Positions 779 through 23,604 of a stretch of DNA of 24,295 nucleotides are shown here, piece after piece (position 1 is the first letter of the stretch; each line of letters opens with the position of its first letter). The DNA lies in the IMG/VR virus record IMGVR_UViG_3300043411_000117, positions 1 through 24,295 of that record. The stretch is one strand, 5' to 3'. The notes under the pieces were generated by a model, which saw only the letters and a list, made by a program, of their open reading frames with translations, made no database searches and was not told where the DNA came from. The stretch is from a virus. A program made the translations under genes and the position numbers.

Positions 779-2401
779 TCACTCCGCGAAAAGCCCGACC
801 GGAGAGGGCGAGCGCAACCTGTAGATGGAAGCGAAGGTCACGTACGCCGGGGCCAGATACAGCGACGGCGACCACCCTCCTGTGCCCGACCCGGTTGGAA
901 TTTCAGCGTCCCGGTGAACCCATGTTGCAAGGTCGGTCGAGGTGTAGACGCCGCTGCTGGCCAGCACCGCGATCCAGACGTTGTTGATGCGCCCCAGGCT
1001 CGACGGCAGCGCCGGCAATGAGCCGGCCAGCGTCCACGTGATCCCGTCGGTGCTCGAGTACAGGAGCCCGCCGAACGCCAGCACGAACGTCGAGCCGGCG
1101 ACGAACAGCTTCGACGACGAGGCCGCGACGCCGGCAGGGCCGGTGCGTGCGGTCCACGTGATGCCATCCGTCGACGTGGCGAAGTTGTTCGAGGACCCGC
1201 CGATGGCGAGGAACACCGAGCCGTTGTGCTTCACCGTCGTCCACCCCTGCGACGTCGGCATCGTGCGCGCGGTCCACGTGATGCCGTCCGTCGACGACCC
1301 CGCGACGGTGGTTCCGGCGACGCCGACAAACACCGAGCCGCCAAATGCGATGTCGTTGTAGGCCGCGCCAAGGGTTCGCGCCGTCCAGGTCACGCCGTCG
1401 GGCGACGACGCGGCGGTGGTGCTGCCGGACACCGAGCACAGGTGCAGGCCTGCTCCGTATGCGTACTTGCTGTAGGCGCCGCTGGCTGGAAACGTTCGGG
1501 ACGTCCACGTGGAGCCATCAGGAGACGTCCACGCGGCGGTGCCCGTCAATGGCGCGGCGACGAACAGCGAGCCACCGTAGTTGATCTGCGGGTAGTTCCC
1601 GGCACCGCCCGGTCCGGCCGCTATCTCCATCAGCTGCTGGCCGCCAGCGACGGGCGTGCGGCCGACGGTCTCGGCGTTGACGATCGGCAGCCGGCGCAGG
1701 CCGCTCGGGAAGTCGAGATAGAACAGCGTGCCGTCGCACGTCAGTAGCGCTTGCTCGCCCGGATAGAGCGTCTGCGTCAACGCGCCGTTGATCGTCTGCG
1801 TGCTCGACGGGTCGATCGTGATCACGCCCGTACCGTCATTCACGACCCAGCACCACCAGCCCGAGGCGAGCGTGCCCGCAGACGTCAGCGCGAGCGTCCA
1901 CGTATTGGTGCACCGGAGGACGGTGCCCTTGTCGCCGGCCACCGCTGTGTAAGCGCCGCTCTTGGCCGAGGTCAGCAGATTGGTGATCGACCCGGCGGCG
2001 CCCTGCGGGCCGCTCACGCCGATCGACCAGTCGGTGTACGTGCCGCTGCCGTTGATCGCCGAAACCGAGATCGCGAGCGACGTGCCGCTGTAGCTGGTGA
2101 CCTGGCCGAGCATCCATGTCGTCGGCGCCGAGGTGCGCACGACGAGCACCCACATGCCGACCGCGTACTGCTTGCTCGCCTGAGTCGTGAACGTGCGCGC
2201 GCCAGTTCCGACGAGCGTCGAGGTCGTCGAGGTCGCGAGCAGTGATGCGCCTTGCGAGGCGGCCGTCACCGCGTCTGCCGCAACCTGCACCGCGACTGCG
2301 GCGATGTCAGCGGCGACATTCGGGAACTCGGTCATATAGCCGAGCCCGGCGAACATCGCCTCGGTGTACGTGTGCCCGTTCAACGTGAATGGGAAGCTCA
2401 C
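779..2401 (-). CDS. tail fibre / receptor-binding protein with Asp-box beta-propeller, 540 aa
   Basis: This is probably the host-recognition protein at the tail tip. Residues 1-55 are helical and Ala-rich and would form an attachment or coiled-coil region. A middle beta-rich section contains a very short collagen-like stretch (GPQGAAG), a feature common in trimeric phage fibres. The C-terminal ~270 residues carry six Asp-box-like motifs of the form S-[PT]-D-x-x-[ST]-W (SPDGSTW, SPDGVTW, STDGITW three times, STDLATW), spaced 37-40 residues apart. Asp-boxes mark blade turns of beta-propellers such as sialidases and BNR-repeat proteins. I see no sialidase arginine triad or RIP motif, so glycan binding is likelier than hydrolysis. 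The ATG overlaps the upstream stop by four bases (2398-2401). Confidence 0.85.
   Translation of the reverse strand: MSFPFTLNGHTYTEAMFAGLGYMTEFPNVAADIAAVAVQVAADAVTAASQGASLLATSTTSTLVGTGARTFTTQASKQYAVGMWVLVVRTSAPTTWMLGQVTSYSGTSLAISVSAINGSGTYTDWSIGVSGPQGAAGSITNLLTSAKSGAYTAVAGDKGTVLRCTNTWTLALTSAGTLASGWWCWVVNDGTGVITIDPSSTQTINGALTQTLYPGEQALLTCDGTLFYLDFPSGLRRLPIVNAETVGRTPVAGGQQLMEIAAGPGGAGNYPQINYGGSLFVAAPLTGTAAWTSPDGSTWTSRTFPASGAYSKYAYGAGLHLCSVSGSTTAASSPDGVTWTARTLGAAYNDIAFGGSVFVGVAGTTVAGSSTDGITWTARTMPTSQGWTTVKHNGSVFLAIGGSSNNFATSTDGITWTARTGPAGVAASSSKLFVAGSTFVLAFGGLLYSSTDGITWTLAGSLPALPSSLGRINNVWIAVLASSGVYTSTDLATWVHRDAEIPTGSGTGGWSPSLYLAPAYVTFASIYRLRSPSPVGLFAE
903..1515 (-). repeat. tandem Asp-box coding repeats in the fibre gene
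   Basis: Six imperfect repeats encode the propeller blades. The Trp codons of the Asp-boxes lie at 1505-1507, 1385-1387, 1274-1276, 1154-1156, 1034-1036 and 920-922, giving periods of 120, 111, 120, 120 and 114 bp. The DNA at 1143-1176 and 1263-1296 matches at 32 of 34 positions, exactly 120 bp apart, so at least these two units are recent copies or have been homogenised. Confidence 0.8.
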
Positions 2402-10062: not shown

Positions 10063-11277
10063 TTACGCGGCCGAGTCCTGCACCTGGATCGTGGTCGCAT
10101 GGTTGGCCAGTGCTGCGCCGCCCGCACTGTTGAAAAACGCCGTGAAGCTGTAGGTGCGCTTCAGGCCCGTTTCGCCGTCATCGGGCGTGCTGGACGAGAG
10201 CTTGACCGCCGACATGGTGAGGGTCACGAAGTCGGCATTTGCCTCGCTGCCCGCAGCCAGAGCAGACAGAATCGAGGTCTGCGTTTCGTCGCGAAACAGG
10301 TCGGGGATCGTGCCGCCCTCGAAGTAGGCGGTGAAGGTGCCGGACACGGCAACCTTGCCGCGAAACACGTCCGGACGGATGTTGCTGCCGACCACCGCAT
10401 CCGCCGCATTGCCGCGACCGTCGATGTTGATCGACAGGTCGGTGATGACGGCCTGCGAGGTGCCGTTGACCAGCAGCGCGCCGCTTGCCGCCACCAGTGC
10501 GCCGGTGGTGGTCTCGGCGGTGGGCGACGTGAAGTAGACAGACGTGTCATCGGTCTGGTCCAGCCCGAGCGCGGTCAGGCTGATTTTTGCGTTCCCGCTG
10601 CCGGGCAACGACAGTGCGGCGGTGTTGAAACGCACATCCATGTTGCGCTCGCTGACGGCCGCATCCGAATACCACTCCTCGATGGTGTAGTAGATGTTCG
10701 TGTGGCCGGTCTCGGGAACATAGGTGACCTTGCCTGGCACCGCGACAGTGGCAGAGGCGATCGGCCCCTCGGCGGTCATCGTCGATCCATTCAGCACGAT
10801 GACGGTCAGAACCGTTGCCGTGACGTTGGTCACAAGGAAATTCTTGTTCAGGTTGTTCGAGTTGAACGAACCAGCCGTCAGGCGAACCACCATGCCGATC
10901 TTGATCCCGCCAGTCAGGAAGTCGCCCGATGCTCGGGTGATGGTGTACGGGCCGCTGCCGGCGATGGTGATCGACAGGCCAGTGATCGAGGTCACGGACG
11001 CGAAGTCACGACGCAGGATGGCCGACACGATGTCCGAATAGGTGCCCGGTGAGAAGATACCCGTCACGCTGCCATTCACGAGCTTCGCGCCATGGCGAAC
11101 GCTGGTGATCTGCGCCTTCTTGGTGATCTCGGACTCTGTGGTGTACGCCTCCTTCTGCAGGTCGAAGGTGGAAGTCTCGCGTCGCAGCACCTGACCTGCG
11201 GACGCGCCCGCGAGCGTGCCTTTTGCCGACTGACGCTTGAACCGCGTCTCCTTGGAAACGCCTTGCGCGATTGCCAT
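10063..11277 (-). CDS. major tail tube protein, 404 aa
   Basis: This is a likely tube-forming subunit of the long tail. The N-terminus MAIAQGVSKETRFKRQSA and the segment TESEITKKAQITSVRHG match the style of the phage tube protein family found in siphoviruses with this gene order. The remainder is beta-rich with many Thr/Ser/Gly repeats. A central Ig-like insertion (about residues 90-180) could decorate the outside of the tube. ATG follows GAGG with seven bases spacing. Position fits: immediately after the tail terminator and before the chaperone pair. Hairpins on both sides of the gene (11299-11313 and 10019-10041) would make it a separately regulated or processed message segment, sensible for a protein needed in many copies. 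Confidence 0.88.
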   Translation of the reverse strand: MAIAQGVSKETRFKRQSAKGTLAGASAGQVLRRETSTFDLQKEAYTTESEITKKAQITSVRHGAKLVNGSVTGIFSPGTYSDIVSAILRRDFASVTSITGLSITIAGSGPYTITRASGDFLTGGIKIGMVVRLTAGSFNSNNLNKNFLVTNVTATVLTVIVLNGSTMTAEGPIASATVAVPGKVTYVPETGHTNIYYTIEEWYSDAAVSERNMDVRFNTAALSLPGSGNAKISLTALGLDQTDDTSVYFTSPTAETTTGALVAASGALLVNGTSQAVITDLSINIDGRGNAADAVVGSNIRPDVFRGKVAVSGTFTAYFEGGTIPDLFRDETQTSILSALAAGSEANADFVTLTMSAVKLSSSTPDDGETGLKRTYSFTAFFNSAGGAALANHATTIQVQDSAA

Positions 11278-11298
11278 AGCTGAACCTCAACGAAGAAA

Positions 11299-11313
11299 GC
11301 CGCGCAGGGCGGC
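11299..11313 (-). terminator. small hairpin with U-tract before tail tube gene
   Basis: Minus strand: GCCGC, loop CCTGC, GCGGC, then TTTCTTCG. A 5-bp all-GC stem followed by a T-rich stretch has the form of a short intrinsic terminator or attenuator. It sits in the 62-bp gap between the tail terminator gene and the tail tube gene, just ahead of the GAGG ribosome-binding site. Confidence 0.5.
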
Positions 11314-11339
11314 AAGAAACGACGAACAACGGGACCGAC

Positions 11340-11747
11340 TCAGGTTGCGATGCAGGCCTGGTATCGGATCGAGATGGGCACCACGTACCAACCATCGGCG
11401 CTGTAGGCGGCGGCCTTGGCTGGCGTGTGCGTGATGACGGTTGCGAGCCCGCCATGCAAGACAGTAGTGCCGCGCTTGAACTGCGCCCGCACGGCCTCCG
11501 CGCGGGTCTGCGCCGCGTCGCTGCCAGTTCCTGCGGGGTAGTAGAGCGTCACCTGAAAGATGCCAATTTCCATCCACTCACGCGGCCCGAGCATTGTGTT
11601 ATCGGGCGACGCCGGCAGCATGTTGACCCGCTGCCATGCGGTTCCGACCGTAGGCGTGAAATGCACGTTCTCCCACGCGGTCGGGATCGCCGGCGACATG
11701 GCGGCAAGCCGCTGCTCCAGCGCACGGCGCACGTTCTGATCGCTCAT
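11340..11747 (-). CDS. tail terminator-like protein (DUF4128-type), 135 aa
   Basis: The start is the ATG at 11747, which overlaps the upstream stop by four bases (ATGA), rather than the in-frame ATG further upstream inside the preceding gene. The protein begins MSDQNVRRALEQRLAAMSP, contains AWENVHFTP and a beta-rich second half ending GWYVVPISIRYQACIAT. This pattern fits the DUF4128 type of phage tail terminators, which form a hexameric ring that caps the growing tail tube and joins it to the head. Its place between the gp10-like protein and the tail tube agrees. The assignment comes from memory of the family pattern and gene order, not from a search. Confidence 0.82.
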   Translation of the reverse strand: MSDQNVRRALEQRLAAMSPAIPTAWENVHFTPTVGTAWQRVNMLPASPDNTMLGPREWMEIGIFQVTLYYPAGTGSDAAQTRAEAVRAQFKRGTTVLHGGLATVITHTPAKAAAYSADGWYVVPISIRYQACIAT

Positions 11748-12160
11748 CGCGCACCCTTGGCTGCACGCACCGCGCGCTCGAATCGCTGCGCGAACTCCAC
11801 TACGGTCACACGCACCATGCCTGCGGGAGCCTGCCGCGACCAACCGTCGTATTCAAGCCGGTATGCGTATGGCAGGCTGTTGGTGATGAAGATCGTCTGC
11901 CCGGGCTTCCATGCTGCGACCTGCGCAGTGAGCGATGCACGCGAAGATGCGCCGCTGGCATCCGCACGCGCATTCGCCGACGCGTCGATCGAATCAAGTG
12001 CGGTCATCCAGTTGTTCTTGAATCGGCCGGTGTCAACGGGGGACTTTTCCGCGACCGAACCGCCGATGCCAAGCGCAGTGCCGCGCACGACCATCTCGGC
12101 GCGGTCGCCAACGCGCTTGAGGAGCGCGGAGAAATTGCGCTTGAAATCTGCGTTGCTCAC
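11744..12160 (-). CDS. tail completion / neck protein (HK97 gp10-like), 138 aa
   Basis: This connector protein lies between the head closure and tail terminator genes. Features of the HK97 gp10 style are visible: an N-terminal helix (MSNADFKRNFSALLKRVGDRAE), the signature AEKSPVDTGRFKNNW around residues 38-52, then a beta segment with IFITNSLPYAYRLEYDG, and a basic C-terminal helix (FAQRFERAVRAAKGAR). Proteins of this type take part in joining the head connector to the tail. Both ends overlap neighbours by four bases, so translation is likely coupled from 12528 to 11340. Confidence 0.88.
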   Translation of the reverse strand: MSNADFKRNFSALLKRVGDRAEMVVRGTALGIGGSVAEKSPVDTGRFKNNWMTALDSIDASANARADASGASSRASLTAQVAAWKPGQTIFITNSLPYAYRLEYDGWSRQAPAGMVRVTVVEFAQRFERAVRAAKGAR

Positions 12161-12528
12161 GACACCCCCCGCACCTGTGCCTCGAACATCACCGCAGTGC
12201 CTGCCGGATTGATCTCGCGGCCAGTCACGACAACGAGGGCGACGCCGCCAATCTCGATCCGGTCGCCGGCGCGCGGCATCACCATGCCGGCCGGGGAAAG
12301 CAACACGCGGCGGTCACCCGCGCGCACGTTTGTTCCGTCCATCTCGCGCGCGCTGTAATCGAACACGGCGCCAGTGCCTGAGTAGGTCGCGGCAATGGCA
12401 GCGGTCGCCACGCCCGTGGCTGGGTCGTAGGTGGCATCGGACGCCGACGGACGCGATAGCACGACCGCGCGACCATACTTGGTCAGCAGGCGGTCTGCGG
12501 TAACCGCGAGGCCGGAATAGAAGGTCAC
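12157..12528 (-). CDS. head closure / head-tail joining protein, 123 aa
   Basis: This 123-residue mostly beta protein follows the DnaT-like connector gene and precedes the gp10-like gene, which is the usual place of the head closure (stopper) protein. It starts MTFYSGLAVTADRLLTKYG, and the core has PSASDATYDPATGVAT followed by an acidic loop and RVLLSPAGMVMPRAGDRIEI, a beta-barrel pattern also seen in small phage joining proteins. ATG overlaps the upstream stop by four bases, and its stop overlaps the next ATG. Confidence rests on order, size and fold-like pattern. Confidence 0.8.
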   Translation of the reverse strand: MTFYSGLAVTADRLLTKYGRAVVLSRPSASDATYDPATGVATAAIAATYSGTGAVFDYSAREMDGTNVRAGDRRVLLSPAGMVMPRAGDRIEIGGVALVVVTGREINPAGTAVMFEAQVRGVS

Positions 12529-13328
12529 GCCCGCACCATCCGAACCGAGCCGGCGGCAGATGCGCGCACCAGGCCAGAGACCAGCGACAGCGCGAACGCG
12601 TAGCGGCCAGCGCCCTGCGACACGTCATGCCCATCGGCGTAGTCCACGCTGATCGGCCCGACGGTCTCGCTCACGGCAGAGCGGCTGCGCTCAGTGGTCA
12701 CCTCGCCGGCCTGCGCGATCTCGATTGCCGCATTGCGCACCGCCACCGGCACCGCATCGACTGCGAGCGGGCGGCCGTCGCGGTCCAGCGCATTGGCACG
12801 CGGCCAGCCGAGCGCCTGCGCACTGGTGGCGATATCGCCCGCCCAGCGCACGGCAGCATCCAGGTAGCAGGTCGCCATCACCAGCCGGCCGGCCTTTGTC
12901 TCCAGGTCCAGCGCATCCCATGCGGCAGCACGTGCGCGCGTTCGAAGGTAGGCATCGGCCTGCGCAACGGTGGCATAGCTGTTCGCATTGGACAGCCCGG
13001 ATCCAGTCTCCACCACGAGCGCCGACGACGCGTCCGCGATGCGCAGCAGTCCATCAAGTTCGTAGGTCTCGCCGTTGTCGGCAGCGACCACGCACAGCAG
13101 GATGTAATCCTCGGCCAGTGTGCCGCCGGACAACAGCACGTTGACCGACTGTCCATCGATCGCATCGCCCGAAGCGACGACTGCGCTCGAGCCAGACACC
13201 AGCCCGGCGGCGGTGGCGGTCAGCGTCGTAATGGACGACAGCGCGACGCCCGCATCGCTGATGCGATCGGCGAAGTCGAACGTGTACGCGAGCGCCTCGC
13301 CCGGCTGCTTGGTGAAGACGGTAGTCAT
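12525..13328 (-). CDS. fused fibre-tail adaptor / DnaT-like connector protein, 267 aa
   Basis: Two parts are visible. Residues 1-102 form a beta-sandwich-like domain (MTTVFTKQPGEALAYTFDF, then Thr/Ala-rich strands and NGETYELDGLLRIAD), which resembles the small phage fibre-tail adaptor proteins. Residues 104-215 match the DnaT-like ssDNA-binding-type phage connector domain: VETGSGLSNANSYATVAQ, then DAYLRTRARAAAW and LGWPRANALDRDG. In phages this second domain works as the adaptor ring under the portal rather than in replication. A C-terminal extension includes GPISVDYADG, a beta-hairpin segment also found in adaptor proteins. ATG has GAGGA four bases upstream, overlapping the previous stop. 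The two domains occur as separate genes in some phages, so this looks like a natural fusion. Confidence 0.82.
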   Translation of the reverse strand: MTTVFTKQPGEALAYTFDFADRISDAGVALSSITTLTATAAGLVSGSSAVVASGDAIDGQSVNVLLSGGTLAEDYILLCVVAADNGETYELDGLLRIADASSALVVETGSGLSNANSYATVAQADAYLRTRARAAAWDALDLETKAGRLVMATCYLDAAVRWAGDIATSAQALGWPRANALDRDGRPLAVDAVPVAVRNAAIEIAQAGEVTTERSRSAVSETVGPISVDYADGHDVSQGAGRYAFALSLVSGLVRASAAGSVRMVRA

Positions 13329-13334
13329 GATTCC

Positions 13335-13574
13335 TCAGTGGATGCGACGACGCGCAGCAGGCGCGACGATCTCGCGCATGGTTGCGGCAGCGGTCATCGA
13401 ATCGGACGCGCTCACCGACTCGACCAGTTCGGCCGCGTAGGTCGCAGCGCCGATGCGCGGATCGAGAGCCACTTGTTTGCTGTGCTCATGCTCCACAGTG
13501 TGAGCAGGGCCACATCCGATGTTCAGCGCTGCGGCAGAATTTCTTCCCGTCTTTGAAACGGAAACGGCCGCCAT
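13335..13574 (-). CDS. small hypothetical protein, up to 79 aa (start uncertain)
   Basis: The frame is open from an ATG at 13574, but that codon lies inside a perfect palindrome that looks like a terminator, and no Shine-Dalgarno sequence precedes it. The part that reads as a real protein is the C-terminal half: VALDPRIGAATYAAELVESV, SASDSMTAAATMREIV, then a basic end. A GTG at Val36 could be an alternative start but also lacks a good ribosome-binding site. The stop overlaps the GAGGA of the next gene, which argues for coupling. I do not recognise the family. Repeated A-S-D-S/E-S-V patterns of this sort occur in small proteins near phage connector genes. Confidence 0.5.
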   Translation of the reverse strand: MAAVSVSKTGRNSAAALNIGCGPAHTVEHEHSKQVALDPRIGAATYAAELVESVSASDSMTAAATMREIVAPAARRRIH

Positions 13575-13586
13575 ATGGCGGCCGTT
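13563..13586 (-). terminator. 24-bp perfect palindrome / terminator after the deacetylase-like gene
   Basis: The sequence at 13563-13586 is identical to its own reverse complement, with half-site AACGGCCGCCAT and centre CATATG. As RNA on the minus strand it would form a 10-bp stem with a four-base loop, followed by TCCGTTTC. It stands in the 89-bp gap between the deacetylase-like gene and the connector genes, so it probably acts as a terminator or attenuator. Confidence 0.65.
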
Positions 13587-13663
13587 GTGCGACGCTACTG
13601 CGCCTGAGTCGCGCTTACGTAGCGCTATCCTGCGTCGAAAGATCGCCCGGGCTATAGGGCCTG

Positions 13664-15274
13664 TCAGTAGCTGTACGGGAGTCCGTACACGCGCGCAGAC
13701 GCCTCGCCGAACGGAAGCACGTCGACACCTCCGATTCGGGCGCGGCCCGCGATGTATTCGAGCGCGGTATTGAGCACGCCGTTCCTAATCTCCAGGCTCG
13801 CCGGAGTCGCGCTGTCGATCACCGACCTATGCAGCGTGATGACGCCCCACTCGCCGCGCGCCTCGGCTTGATCGCACACCCATTGAATGTCCGCCGCCGT
13901 GGTCGTGTCCGTGACCTGCAGCGCACCTTGCACGAAGTAAGGGTCAGACGGCCGGGCGATCGACTGCATTCGCTTGTACACCCCGACCGATTTTCTGATC
14001 GCAAGAATTCCGGCGGCGCGATATGCCGCTACCACCTCTGCCTGCCTCGCGGCCGGTGTGGACTGTGCCCACGGGTACGTGCCTCCGTGGACGGCGAAGC
14101 GCGCACCGCGCGTCCACCCTGCCGCCGCGATGTAGTCGCGGCACGCAACTATGTCTGCCTGGATGGCGGCCTGATCCGCCCATTTCCCGGCATTGGCATA
14201 ATCGCCGCCGTTGCTACCGTCGCCAGAATGCACGATGACTTCGTGCCCATCGGAATACGCCGCGGCGAGGTGTGCGGCCGACATTCGATTCGCAGATCCT
14301 ACCAGGCTTGACTGAATCGCGAACGACCCGCGCATGCCCAGCCCGTCGAGCATCGGGCGGATGTAGCTGTGCTGCGATGAGTACTGCCCGTCCGCGCAGA
14401 TCGACACGATCCCGCGCTTGCGCGCATTCATGGTGATCGGGCCGATCCAGATGTTCACGTCGTCCGCGCCGGCCGGCGCGACGATCACAACGCGCGCACG
14501 CGGGCACGTCTCTCCGTCGATGTCGCTAGATGCCGTCCAACCGCCGCCGAACGCCCACCCTTCTGCTGTTCCTCCGGCCGCCACGGACACCACATGCCAT
14601 TCGCCAGGCGTCATCTGGCTCGTATCGAGATTGGCGCGTATCTGCTTGCCAAGCGTCGAGTCATACCACCACAGCGCGATCTGGTTTGTTGACCCGAGGA
14701 ATCCGACGTTGCTCGAAAATTTGACCGGAATCTGCAGCGTTCGCAGCTTCGACATGGTGATCGACGGCGAGATGGCGATGTTCGACTGGAACGTCGTAGA
14801 CGCTTTCAAGGTAATTTTCTGAGTCGGCCGGCCTTGATACGTAACGCTCGTATCGAGTGTCACCGATTCGGGCGATCCGTTCGCCGAGACAAGGGTCAGC
14901 GCACCGCTCGTTGCCCAGTCGATCAGCTGCGTGCCGGGACCGTCGTGCTGACCGCTAATTGCTCGCCGATATCCATCCGGGCCCACCAGCGCCGAGCCGG
15001 TGGCGTCGGAGAAGCGGGCGACCATTGCATCCGGGGACGCTCGAAGAGCGCTATCCAACTCCAGCGAGATCAGTCCGGAAATGCACGTCACCCGGTACTG
15101 CAAATCCTCTGTGTACGGACCGTATCTGACAGACGCCGATACTGCGTCCTTGTCGATCAGCGTGCTTCCGATAAATCGCTCCACGAGCGCGGACCCGGAC
15201 GACACAGTGACTTGCAGTTGCTGTCCTGCGCGCAGCGTGTTTGTCGCTCGCTCACCTTGTGCAATGGTGGTCAT
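13664..15274 (-). CDS. virion protein with polysaccharide-deacetylase-like domain, 536 aa
   Basis: Three regions are visible. Residues 1-90 form a beta-rich anchor (TIAQGERATNTLRAGQQL, SALVERFIGS) of a kind found at the start of phage structural proteins. Residues 115-285 look like a carbohydrate-binding beta-sandwich. Residues 288-525 resemble the NodB polysaccharide deacetylase fold: motif 1 is SICADGQ instead of TFDDG (Asp295 kept, first Asp replaced by Ala294), motif 2 is GHEVIVHSGDGS (His349 kept, second His replaced by Gly353), and a late GVITLH (His482) resembles motif 5. The catalytic base and one metal ligand thus appear lost, so it may bind glycans rather than deacetylate them. It lies between capsid and connector genes, not with the fibres, suggesting a head or neck decoration. 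The start overlaps a tiny upstream ORF by ATGA. Confidence 0.72.
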   Translation of the reverse strand: MTTIAQGERATNTLRAGQQLQVTVSSGSALVERFIGSTLIDKDAVSASVRYGPYTEDLQYRVTCISGLISLELDSALRASPDAMVARFSDATGSALVGPDGYRRAISGQHDGPGTQLIDWATSGALTLVSANGSPESVTLDTSVTYQGRPTQKITLKASTTFQSNIAISPSITMSKLRTLQIPVKFSSNVGFLGSTNQIALWWYDSTLGKQIRANLDTSQMTPGEWHVVSVAAGGTAEGWAFGGGWTASSDIDGETCPRARVVIVAPAGADDVNIWIGPITMNARKRGIVSICADGQYSSQHSYIRPMLDGLGMRGSFAIQSSLVGSANRMSAAHLAAAYSDGHEVIVHSGDGSNGGDYANAGKWADQAAIQADIVACRDYIAAAGWTRGARFAVHGGTYPWAQSTPAARQAEVVAAYRAAGILAIRKSVGVYKRMQSIARPSDPYFVQGALQVTDTTTAADIQWVCDQAEARGEWGVITLHRSVIDSATPASLEIRNGVLNTALEYIAGRARIGGVDVLPFGEASARVYGLPYSY

Positions 15275-15355: not shown

Positions 15356-15544
15356 TCACTGCGGATCGGCGTCGGGCTTCGACTTGCCGACCTTGGCTTT
15401 GACCGGCGATTGCTGCGCGCGGTCGTCATACAGCTCGTGCACGCGCGGATCGAACGCATCGGCGTTGATCCACTTCCAGCCACGCCCGCCTTCGCGCTTG
15501 ACGCGCACGACGGCCACGCGGTTCACGCCTTCATCGAACATCAT
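15356..15544 (-). CDS. small hypothetical protein after the capsid gene, 62 aa
   Basis: The frame begins with two ATG codons (MMFDEGVNRVAVVRV) preceded by GAGGG. Residues 5-16 form a clear beta strand and WKWINADAFDPRVHELYDD forms an amphipathic segment. The C-terminus is Lys/Asp/Pro-rich and probably disordered. Its position directly after the major capsid gene and its composition suggest a small head accessory or decoration protein, but I recognise no family. The stop TGA forms part of the ribosome-binding site of the tiny gene that follows. Confidence 0.7.
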   Translation of the reverse strand: MMFDEGVNRVAVVRVKREGGRGWKWINADAFDPRVHELYDDRAQQSPVKAKVGKSKPDADPQ

Positions 15545-15593: not shown

Positions 15594-16757
15594 TCAGCCC
15601 ATCAGGGTGGCGATGTGCGCCGACTTGATCGCCGACACGCCCCAGGCAAGACACACCTCGAACTTGACCTGCCGGTACTGGCGATACACGCGCACCTCGA
15701 AGGTCAGGCCCGTGACCGGATCGGTCAGCATCATCGCGTCGTCCGCCGAGTCGCCACCGGTCGGCACGGCCGGCGCGCGGGTCACCAGCACGATGGCCGA
15801 ACGGCTGAACGCGAGGTTCGGCGTGTAGCTGTTGCCGATGGTCATCTCCACCGCATCCGCCAGCGTCGCGCGCAGGCCGGGCGCGTTGAGCACGATGTCG
15901 GCTTCGATCTCGGTCGTGCCGGTCTTGACGATGTAGTTGTTCGTGTCGCCAGCGAAGGTGACCACGTCGCCCGCCTTGATGCCGGTCGAGTTCACCGTGC
16001 CGCCATCCAGATGGATGGTCTTCGCACCGACGGCGTAGCCGGCGATCAGGTCCACGTCGTAGCCAACGCCCGCGCCCTTGACGTGCTGCGAGATGCCGCC
16101 CGAGTAGCGCATCGCCATGTTCTGCAGACGCTCCGTCATGCCATCGCGCAGCATGTCGGACGAACCGGCCTCATTGACCTTGAACAACACCGACTGCTTG
16201 CCGCGCAGGTTGGCCATGGCGGCCGAACCGACGACAAGCTGACGGTCCGAATTCGGGCAGCCGTTGTCGTCCAGGATCTGCGCCACGCCGGCCAGGCCGG
16301 ACAGGTCGCCAGCAGTGCCGAACGGCGCGGTGCCGGCCGAGCCATACGCACGCGAGGCAGCCTTGTAGCCGGCCATGAACGTATCGATCTCGACCTGATT
16401 CACCAGCTTGCGCATGGCATCGACGAACTGATCGGCCAGGATGCGGTTGTAGGTGCCGGTGGTGCCGACGGCGCGCTCCTCTTCGCCATTCCAGCGAATG
16501 GGCGATGCGTAGGCGCTCGTGATCGCCACATCGGCGTAGTCGACCGTCGTGTCGCCAGAGTTGGCAGGCGTCGCGGCCGGGGTGATCGCCTCAAGCGCGC
16601 CGGCTTCGGCCAGCGGCACGCGCACGACCTGATTCACGGCGGCGCGATCCGCATTGGTGTCGCGGCGAACTGCCGGGATGAAACCGACCATCTCGCGCGA
16701 GATGACGTTGAGCGCTTCGTACAGGGTGGGCACCAGGCCCGTCAGAGTGTTGGCCAC
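15594..16757 (-). CDS. major capsid protein, P22 coat-like, 387 aa
   Basis: This is the HK97-fold shell protein. The N-terminus MANTLTGLVPTLYEALNVIS, followed by EMVGFIPAVRRD and AAVNQVVRVP, matches the P22 gene 5 coat family closely in style. P22 coat is 430 residues, this is 387. A region around residues 235-320 (GAKTIHLDGG, AGDVVTFAGDTN, and a strand-rich stretch) could correspond to the inserted I-domain. The C-terminus has LTFEVRVYRQYRQVKFEV, typical of the family's P-domain end. The start is GTG with a perfect AAGGAG seven bases upstream. It follows the scaffold gene, with an intrinsic terminator between them, which could help set the capsid-to-scaffold ratio. P22-like coats are found in both short- and long-tailed phages. 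Confidence 0.93.
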   Translation of the reverse strand: MANTLTGLVPTLYEALNVISREMVGFIPAVRRDTNADRAAVNQVVRVPLAEAGALEAITPAATPANSGDTTVDYADVAITSAYASPIRWNGEEERAVGTTGTYNRILADQFVDAMRKLVNQVEIDTFMAGYKAASRAYGSAGTAPFGTAGDLSGLAGVAQILDDNGCPNSDRQLVVGSAAMANLRGKQSVLFKVNEAGSSDMLRDGMTERLQNMAMRYSGGISQHVKGAGVGYDVDLIAGYAVGAKTIHLDGGTVNSTGIKAGDVVTFAGDTNNYIVKTGTTEIEADIVLNAPGLRATLADAVEMTIGNSYTPNLAFSRSAIVLVTRAPAVPTGGDSADDAMMLTDPVTGLTFEVRVYRQYRQVKFEVCLAWGVSAIKSAHIATLMG

Positions 16758-22874: not shown

Positions 22875-23119
22875 ACCCGCTTCACCACGAATTCGAGCCT
22901 CGGCTGAACCGGCGTGATCGGCAACAAGCGCCCTGGCTCGGCCGCCCACACGCTACCGTCGAGCGCCTGGACGATGACGTGCGCTGGCGCGTGGAGCGCT
23001 ACTTGTGCGCTCGTGCCGTTGCGCCTGAGCATCGTCCCGTGCTGGCCGGAGAACTGCCCGCCGAGCATAGTGATCGGGTCGCCACGGTCGGGGATCGTCG
23101 GGTCTGGTGTTGGGGTCAT
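22871..23119 (-). CDS. KOW-like small protein, 82 aa
   Basis: The protein starts at ATG 23119, overlapping the resolvase stop by four bases. Residues 11-33 (DRGDPITMLGGQFSGQHG and following) fit the KOW motif pattern of NusG, L24 and L26 proteins (GD-x-h-x-h-h-x-G-x-h-x-G-x-x-G-x-h), which binds nucleic acid or RNA polymerase-associated complexes. The remaining residues are beta-rich with SVWAAEPGRLLPI, as in small SH3-like barrels. So a small nucleic-acid-binding or transcription-related protein is possible. The resemblance is short and needs a profile search to be convincing. Confidence 0.6.
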   Translation of the reverse strand: MTPTPDPTIPDRGDPITMLGGQFSGQHGTMLRRNGTSAQVALHAPAHVIVQALDGSVWAAEPGRLLPITPVQPRLEFVVKRV

Positions 23120-23604
23120 GCGAATGCCTTGTGCCCATACGCACCGATAAGCGCCGCCTCAGCGCGGCCGTGATCCTTCACGCGCTGCCATTCGCCCGCC
23201 ATGCTCGGCCAGCGCAGCGACGCCATTCCGCGCGCGTGGCCCTTGTCTGCTGACAGCCCGGCCGCGCGCTTCCATGCGCCCGGCGTCACGAACTGGACAG
23301 ACACTCCGAGCGCGAGAAACGCAGCTTCGATTGCGCCGCATGAATGACCGAGGGAGAACATGGACGACACGCCTTGTCCGGGCATTGCCGCAACAGACTC
23401 AATGACTGCCATTTCCGCATCCGGTCCGAATCGCGCGCGCCAGTCGCGGACAAGCGCGGCCAGTCCCGCGGCGCACACCTTGCGTTTCGTCTTGCCGGTG
23501 CTTCCAGTGTCGCGCACCGGCATGTCACGCACTTCGCGCAGCTCGCCATTGATGAACACCGACAAAGCGCCGGTCAGCCCAGGGTCAACGCCGTACACGA
23601 TCAC
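23116..23604 (-). CDS. RuvC-like Holliday junction resolvase, 162 aa
   Basis: This is an RNase H-fold nuclease likely to cut branched DNA before packaging or during recombination. The first strand YGVDPGLTGALSV has the catalytic Asp7. VIESVAAMPGQG contains Glu69. The C-terminal KDHGRAEAALIGAYG provides Asp144 and Glu149, at the place of the D-x-x-D pair of RuvC. The GVSSMFSLGHSCGAIEAA segment after Glu69 is the usual helix of this family, and the length is typical of phage RuvC-like proteins. The start is a GTG whose GTGA overlaps the previous stop. It lies in a run of small coupled genes after the helicase. Confidence 0.9.
   Translation of the reverse strand: MIVYGVDPGLTGALSVFINGELREVRDMPVRDTGSTGKTKRKVCAAGLAALVRDWRARFGPDAEMAVIESVAAMPGQGVSSMFSLGHSCGAIEAAFLALGVSVQFVTPGAWKRAAGLSADKGHARGMASLRWPSMAGEWQRVKDHGRAEAALIGAYGHKAFA

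Follow-up and report, generated by a model that had tools for sequence, protein, structure and literature searches.

A putative head-decoration protein with a beta-sandwich and a rebuilt deacetylase-like site, encoded between the coat and adaptor genes of a tailed phage

Gene, neighbourhood and domains of the 536-residue protein

The window, that is, the whole stretch of DNA that was analysed, is a linear virus contig of 24,295 bases, and a search of 50,697 phage records gave no near-identical match to it apart from 48 bases of the terminase gene. On the minus strand, positions 13664 to 15274 form one open frame from ATG to stop, encoding a protein of 536 amino acids at the place and of the length given in a preliminary description of this DNA, which named no strand. 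Read along this strand, the 536-aa gene is preceded by those for the terminase, the portal, a head morphogenesis protein (phrog_241), the scaffold (phrog_206), the coat (phrog_283), and a 62-aa protein, in this order; after it come Ad1, the head-tail adaptor (phrog_477), Hc1, the head closure protein (phrog_161), and then the genes for tail completion, tail tube, tape measure, and tail tip, where the names of the terminase, portal, and tail genes were assigned from reading the sequences. The major coat protein (15594 to 16757, minus strand) is of P22 coat-5 type, as indicated by its match to phrog_283 (E 1.9e-92) and by tblastn to P22 coat-5 proteins. Ad1 (12525 to 13328, minus strand) matched phrog_477 (E 2.6e-33) and PF20557, and its extra N-terminal domain matched PF23148, the podophage GP4 fibre-tail adaptor gp77; Hc1 follows at 12157 to 12528 (minus strand). 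Besides the 536-aa gene, the slot between coat and adaptor contains only the 62-aa ORF (15356 to 15544, minus strand), which is also present in the related contig L087 described below, and a doubtful ORF of 79 aa (13335 to 13574). With the coat gene on one side and the head-tail adaptor gene on the other, the earlier placement of the gene between capsid and connector genes was confirmed.

Two further genes of the window were recorded. A 540-aa tail-end protein (779 to 2401, minus strand) contains repeated TS.DG.TWT.R motifs, appears propeller-like by eye, gives only DUF6242 in Pfam, and is possibly the tail receptor-binding protein. A RuvC-like Holliday junction resolvase is encoded at 23116 to 23604 (minus strand; weak match to PF02075, E 0.018).

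The 536-aa protein comprises an N-terminal anchor, a beta-sandwich, and a NodB-like domain. The anchor (residues 1 to 82; 15029 to 15274, minus strand) is a small all-beta domain modelled at a pLDDT of 89.9 from a four-sequence alignment; the nearest solved folds are of the double-stranded beta-helix or cupin types, and zero PDB matches to the anchor model were obtained at E <= 0.001. The anchor is similar to the N-termini of proteins encoded in the same slot elsewhere, namely Rhizobium phage P106B gp12 (z 9.7), L061 (z 6.2), and L002 (z 6.1). An SGNH motif read visually in the L061 slot protein was unconfirmed by Pfam and was not counted as evidence. The anchor is followed by a linker (residues 76 to 101; 14972 to 15049, minus strand) that ends in ALVGPDG, where the identity with L087 stops. 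The beta-sandwich (residues 110 to 283; 14426 to 14947, minus strand) is of carbohydrate-binding-module type, with a phmmer match to the CBM30 module 2c24 (E 0.0079) and a Foldseek match to the CBM30 module 1wzx (E 7.8e-6); CBM22 was also matched, and the domain is kept in the homologue L110. Searches of phage records, plasmids, and viral contigs with the whole protein gave nothing or one weak match, the NodB part or the anchor part alone as query gave nothing useful, and no PHROGs family was found for the 536-aa protein.

Relatives of the NodB-like domain and exchange of the distal part

The NodB-like domain (residues 286 to 530; 13685 to 14419, minus strand) scored 15.1 bits against Polysacc_deac_1 (PF01522) within the whole protein and 17.1 bits as a domain alone, below the cut-off of 23.1. 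The same cut-off was passed by the family members L087 (29.7 bits), L102, and L103, so the profile search proposed in the preliminary description failed for the window domain itself and succeeded for its relatives. The homologue L110 is 37% identical to the window protein over 425 columns, and the homologue L116 is 30% identical over 214 residues (E 1e-18). The assignment is therefore weak from the window sequence by itself but secure through its relatives. In the model, which is of moderate confidence, strands alternate with helices over residues 288 to 530, and Foldseek matched the CE4 domains 7ax7 (TMt 0.61) and 2c71 (TMt 0.58), as expected for the beta/alpha fold that had been predicted. 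Both the beta-sandwich and the NodB-like domain of the earlier description were thus upheld, the latter by way of L110, L116, L087, L102, and L103. Weak matches to Peptidase_S9 and to a DUF were rejected because the relative-supported NodB domain covers the same stretch, and a Burkholderiales match, L099, was a false one, being a prolyl oligopeptidase.

The gene of the L110 homologue, whose N-terminus is unrelated to the window anchor, has genes for an S78 protease and an HK97-type capsid (Phage_capsid) ahead of it, with phrog_3758 (head and packaging) and Phage_connect_1 coming after. The L116 homologue, located in a prophage-like part of another genome, is encoded between a T7-type portal (PF12236) and a capsid gene (PF19821), with a 153-aa protein directly before it. 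The comparison of neighbourhoods advised in the preliminary description hence found homologues within the head gene blocks of an HK97-capsid phage and a T7-like one. Related sandwich-plus-NodB proteins are also found elsewhere: at the tail-fibre end of L102, another Burkholderiales prophage, and beside lysis or baseplate genes in the Arthrobacter phages Qui and Lilmac1015. Since these proteins stand at tail or lysis genes and those of L110 and L116 in head blocks, the design serves both tail and head, and the closest relatives of the window protein belong to the head blocks of different capsid types. In L102, a 121-aa protein (L102:10712-11077) directly precedes the sandwich-plus-NodB protein (11067-12443; motif TFDDG), a pair that recalls gp30-gp31 of the virus HFTV1; L103 is a second NodB protein copy elsewhere in the same genome.

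The slot itself is mostly 0.1 to 0.5 kb long among 80 coat-gene relatives, and only a minority have large genes in it. In the Rhizobium phages P106B and RHph_X2_24, which have a related coat gene, it is occupied by SGNH hydrolases. ORFs that appear by eye to be of the homing-endonuclease (HNH) type occur in the slot of L016 and L054, suggesting that it takes mobile genes too.

L087, a contig of a Burkholderiales MAG, shares about 97% DNA identity with the window in the regions that flank the slot on either side. Residues 1 to 101 are 98% identical between the two proteins, and there are four codon differences in these 101 codons, two of them silent. The identity ends at codon 101 of the 536-aa gene (window about 14971) and returns within Hc1 (about 12195). 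The block between these points (12195 to 14971, minus strand), which comprises the distal part of the 536-aa protein, Ad1, and most of Hc1, is replaced in L087 by a different sandwich, a NodB domain above the Pfam cut-off, an integrase remnant, and a different Ad1 and Hc1. Judged from these sequences, cassette exchange replaces the distal part while the anchor stays constant. The remnant, at L087:1857-2044 after the swapped NodB gene, is the C-terminal part of a tyrosine integrase (LLGHAHAEMTAIYLNDRG; Phage_integrase, E 1.8e-5) and may be a scar of the exchange. A second mosaic junction was observed in the tape measure gene, which departs abruptly from L087 after a near-identical stretch (window 8357; L087:7090).

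State of the active-site motifs

In known CE4 enzymes, the first Asp of motif 1 is the catalytic base. The CE4/NodB pattern of two adjacent Asp residues, catalytic base and metal ligand, is not present in the window protein, where motif 1 reads A294-D295-G296 (14387 to 14395, minus strand) with the first Asp changed to Ala and the second kept. Motif 2 (H349-S-G-D352, followed by G-S; 14219 to 14230 for the first four residues, minus strand) keeps the His but does not form the HxxxH pair of metal ligands, and in the alignment Asp352 stands opposite a His of L116 (VHGLHGSNG). The motif 5 His is H482 in ITLHRSV (13829 to 13831, minus strand). The residues SICADGQ, VHSGDGS, Asp295, His349, and His482 listed in the preliminary description were reproduced exactly.

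Six proteins were aligned. Motif 1 reads ICADG in the window, VVLDG in L110, TFDDG in L102, TYDDE in L116, THDDA in L087, and TIDDV in HFTV1 gp31; motif 2 reads VHSGDGSNG, HHTFNATIG, VHGNPSNP, VHGLHGSNG, SHNVDNITH, and NHGYNH, respectively. Three residues were invariant in all six: the second Asp (D295), first His (H349), and motif 5 His (H482). The first Asp is absent from the window and L110 only (VVLDGQYSSQH in L110 vs SICADGQYSSQH in the window), L110 having an L-D pair in its place, and the second His is absent from the window, L110, and L102. Three positions after the first His, the window and L087 have Asp, whereas L116 has His, L110 has Asn, and L102 has Pro. H302 and H396 are further histidines common to the window and L110.

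Because L110, with a different N-terminus and in a different kind of phage, shares the loss of the first Asp, this loss is not chance decay of the window copy, and the window lineage is read as a branch with a rebuilt site. A decayed pseudogene was rejected, as L110 has the same motif loss in an intact frame of 524 aa. The "altered metal ligands" of the preliminary description fit this state, given the invariant D295 and H349 and a +3 residue that is Asp in the window and His in L116. As the catalytic-base Asp is gone while D295, H349, and H482 are kept and D352 stands in the place of the second His, the rebuilt site is most likely that of a lectin or of a weak non-canonical enzyme holding a metal and a glycan. 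For the window protein, glycan binding is more likely than canonical catalysis, which may have been lost.

Probable position on the virion and comparison with known systems

The full-length model had a mean pLDDT of 60.8. Its top Foldseek match in the PDB was the HFTV1 turret, 8qpg, aligned over 450 columns with an E of 5.7e-13; next came carbohydrate-binding modules, the best of them at 1.6e-6, while CE4 domains reached about 3e-4. Given the TMq of 0.32 and rmsd of 18.4, the 8qpg match represents domains in the same order and not one rigid body. In a viral model library, the best matches were an Arthrobacter phage esterase, Bacillus phage G gp673, and two further proteins, followed by HFTV1 gp31 (E 1e-14). 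Profile comparison with gp31 gave an E of 4e-6 over the NodB part; since an ordinary cellular deacetylase scored better (6e-8), gp31 is not singled out by sequence, and kinship to gp31 itself rests on the two-domain architecture. The HFTV1 base protein gp30 showed zero similarity to the anchor and to the neighbouring small proteins.

In HFTV1, every capsid hexamer carries a hexamer of gp30 topped by a trimer of gp31. Residues 57-198 of gp31 form a galactose-binding-like domain and residues 199-413 a deacetylase-like domain that has three Zn sites, and the authors of the structure proposed reversible glycan binding and glycan modification for this turret head protein (PMC12494034). They reported that it has no homology with proteins of bacteriophages and no homologue among the genomes of other haloarchaeal viruses, and suggested that the turret strategy may be specific to HFTV1 (PMC12494034).

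On balance, we consider the 536-aa protein to be probably an outer head decoration resembling the HFTV1 turret head protein, with a rebuilt deacetylase site and a cassette-exchanged distal part. This reading is based on the position between coat and adaptor, the homologues L110 and L116 in unrelated head blocks, and the HFTV1 precedent; it is also based on L087, which keeps the anchor while swapping the distal part, and on SGNH hydrolases, other glycan-ester-type enzymes, in the same slot of related-coat phages. The turret as top PDB fold match and the first-Asp loss common to the window and L110 also speak for it. The head or neck decoration handling polysaccharide that the preliminary description had proposed is accordingly well supported, by three unrelated head gene blocks, a fixed anchor with an exchangeable distal part, and the turret of HFTV1. 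The protein, possibly as an oligomer, would be fixed to the capsid, either straight or by way of a small base protein, through its N-terminal 75 or so residues. The beta-sandwich would reach outward and bind glycan, and the NodB-like domain would present a second outward face, where the loss of the base Asp (A294), the retention of D295, H349, and H482, and the replacement of the second His by D352 may leave either glycan binding around a metal that D295, H349, and perhaps D352 coordinate, or weak catalysis without the usual base. Before the tail engages, such a protein could establish an initial, reversible contact with polysaccharide of the host or the environment. Against a turret-like decoration stand the weak full-length model, the HFTV1 match of only domains in the same order, the better score of the cellular deacetylase, the similar proteins at tail or lysis genes (L102, Qui, and Lilmac1015), and the lack of a recognised gp30-like base-protein gene near the window gene.

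A head decoration that is still an active deacetylase has a smaller, though appreciable, chance of being correct. Its metal would be held by D295, H349, and D352, and another residue, for example H302 or H396, would serve as base. The three invariant residues, the two histidines common to the window and L110, and the exchange of Asp for the His of L116 at position 352 are consistent with it, as are the L087 distal allele, which has THDDA and SSHNVDNITH and passes Pfam, and gp31 with TIDDV and HGYNH. However, the first Asp is Ala in the window and Leu in L110, the proposed third ligand is not constant (Asn in L110), and the NodB region was modelled at moderate confidence.

The remaining alternatives concern where the protein is carried. 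A neck or connector fibre attached through Ad1, with its extra gp77-like domain, is rather unlikely: the adjoining adaptor gene and the PF23148 match, named after a podophage fibre-tail adaptor, would suit it, but L087, with a 98% identical anchor, has an Ad1 of 165 aa without this domain, and the Ad1 of P106B is also short. The anchor therefore does not need the fused domain, which was rejected as a required holder of the 536-aa protein. We regard as improbable a tail-borne receptor-binding deacetylase whose gene lies at a distance from the tail genes; the same design does occur at the tail-fibre end of L102 and beside baseplate genes in Lilmac1015, but the anchor resembles N-termini from the coat-adaptor slot of other phages, and the direct homologues L110 and L116 lie in head blocks. 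Least probable of all is a non-virion moron or lysogenic-conversion enzyme inserted among the late genes. Recombination at the flanks and the integrase remnant after the L087 gene speak for it; against it, the gene is on the same strand as the late genes, its product has a beta-rich N-terminus with no obvious signal peptide by eye, and the anchor is common to same-slot proteins of other phages.

In summary, the phage probably carries a swappable, sugar-binding, deacetylase-like protein on its head rather than on its tail. The head-block homologues suggest that head-mounted deacetylase-like glycan modules also occur in bacterial siphoviruses and a podovirus. A wider proposal, which we hold only tentatively, is that exchangeable glycan modules decorate the outside of the head in tailed phages from three or more capsid lineages, as bacterial counterparts of the HFTV1 turret. 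The distal module would be swapped on a constant capsid anchor, much as tailspikes are on tail anchors, and in one branch the deacetylase, by losing the base Asp, would have become a lectin that holds a metal, or an enzyme wired in another way. Proteins that handle sugars may thus be more widespread on virus heads than thought, and host-range prediction from tail genes alone would miss them. Two questions become testable: whether host polysaccharide is recognised or edited by phage heads as well as by tails, and whether exchange of cassettes is how head modules evolve.

Among known systems, HFTV1 gp31 (PDB 8QPG) likewise joins a beta-sandwich of galactose-binding-like type to a deacetylase-like domain at the C-terminus, its gene lies in the head-tail block, and its deacetylase motif region aligns with that of the window protein. 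However, gp31 retains both TIDD and HxxxH and stands on a base protein of its own, gp30, whereas the window protein is fused to its anchor and lacks the first Asp and second His; moreover, the window gene follows the coat gene of a bacterial phage with a P22-type coat, and gp30-gp31 follow a tail-completion gene. The preliminary description held that neither of its proposed arrangements is standard; as a claim of lacking precedent, this is contradicted by gp31, which has the sandwich-plus-deacetylase design on a head (PMC12494034). CE4/NodB deacetylases (PF01522; 7ax7 and 2c71) share the fold, by profile and structure match, and the second Asp, first His, and motif 5 His, but the window domain is below the Pfam cut-off and has neither the catalytic-base Asp nor HxxxH. 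Phage tail deacetylases and esterases, such as the Pectobacterium phage Possum tail fibre (PMC9569702) and those of Arthrobacter phages, are likewise modular proteins with a glycan-modifying domain on the virion. They are carried on tailspikes, fibres, or baseplates, whereas the window protein has a slot-specific anchor and a gene located in the head block, between coat and adaptor, rather than in a tail or receptor-binding block. The SGNH hydrolases of P106B and RHph_X2_24 occupy the same slot after a related coat gene, and P106B gp12 shares the anchor domain, but the enzyme fold is a different one and in P106B it is encoded apart from the anchor protein. Ig-like and other glycan-binding capsid decorations of the T4 Hoc type have also been proposed to make reversible glycan contact from the head (PMC12494034), but without an enzyme-like domain. 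The HFTV1 turret is a solved example of such a head protein, and the window protein is a variation on it rather than a new category.
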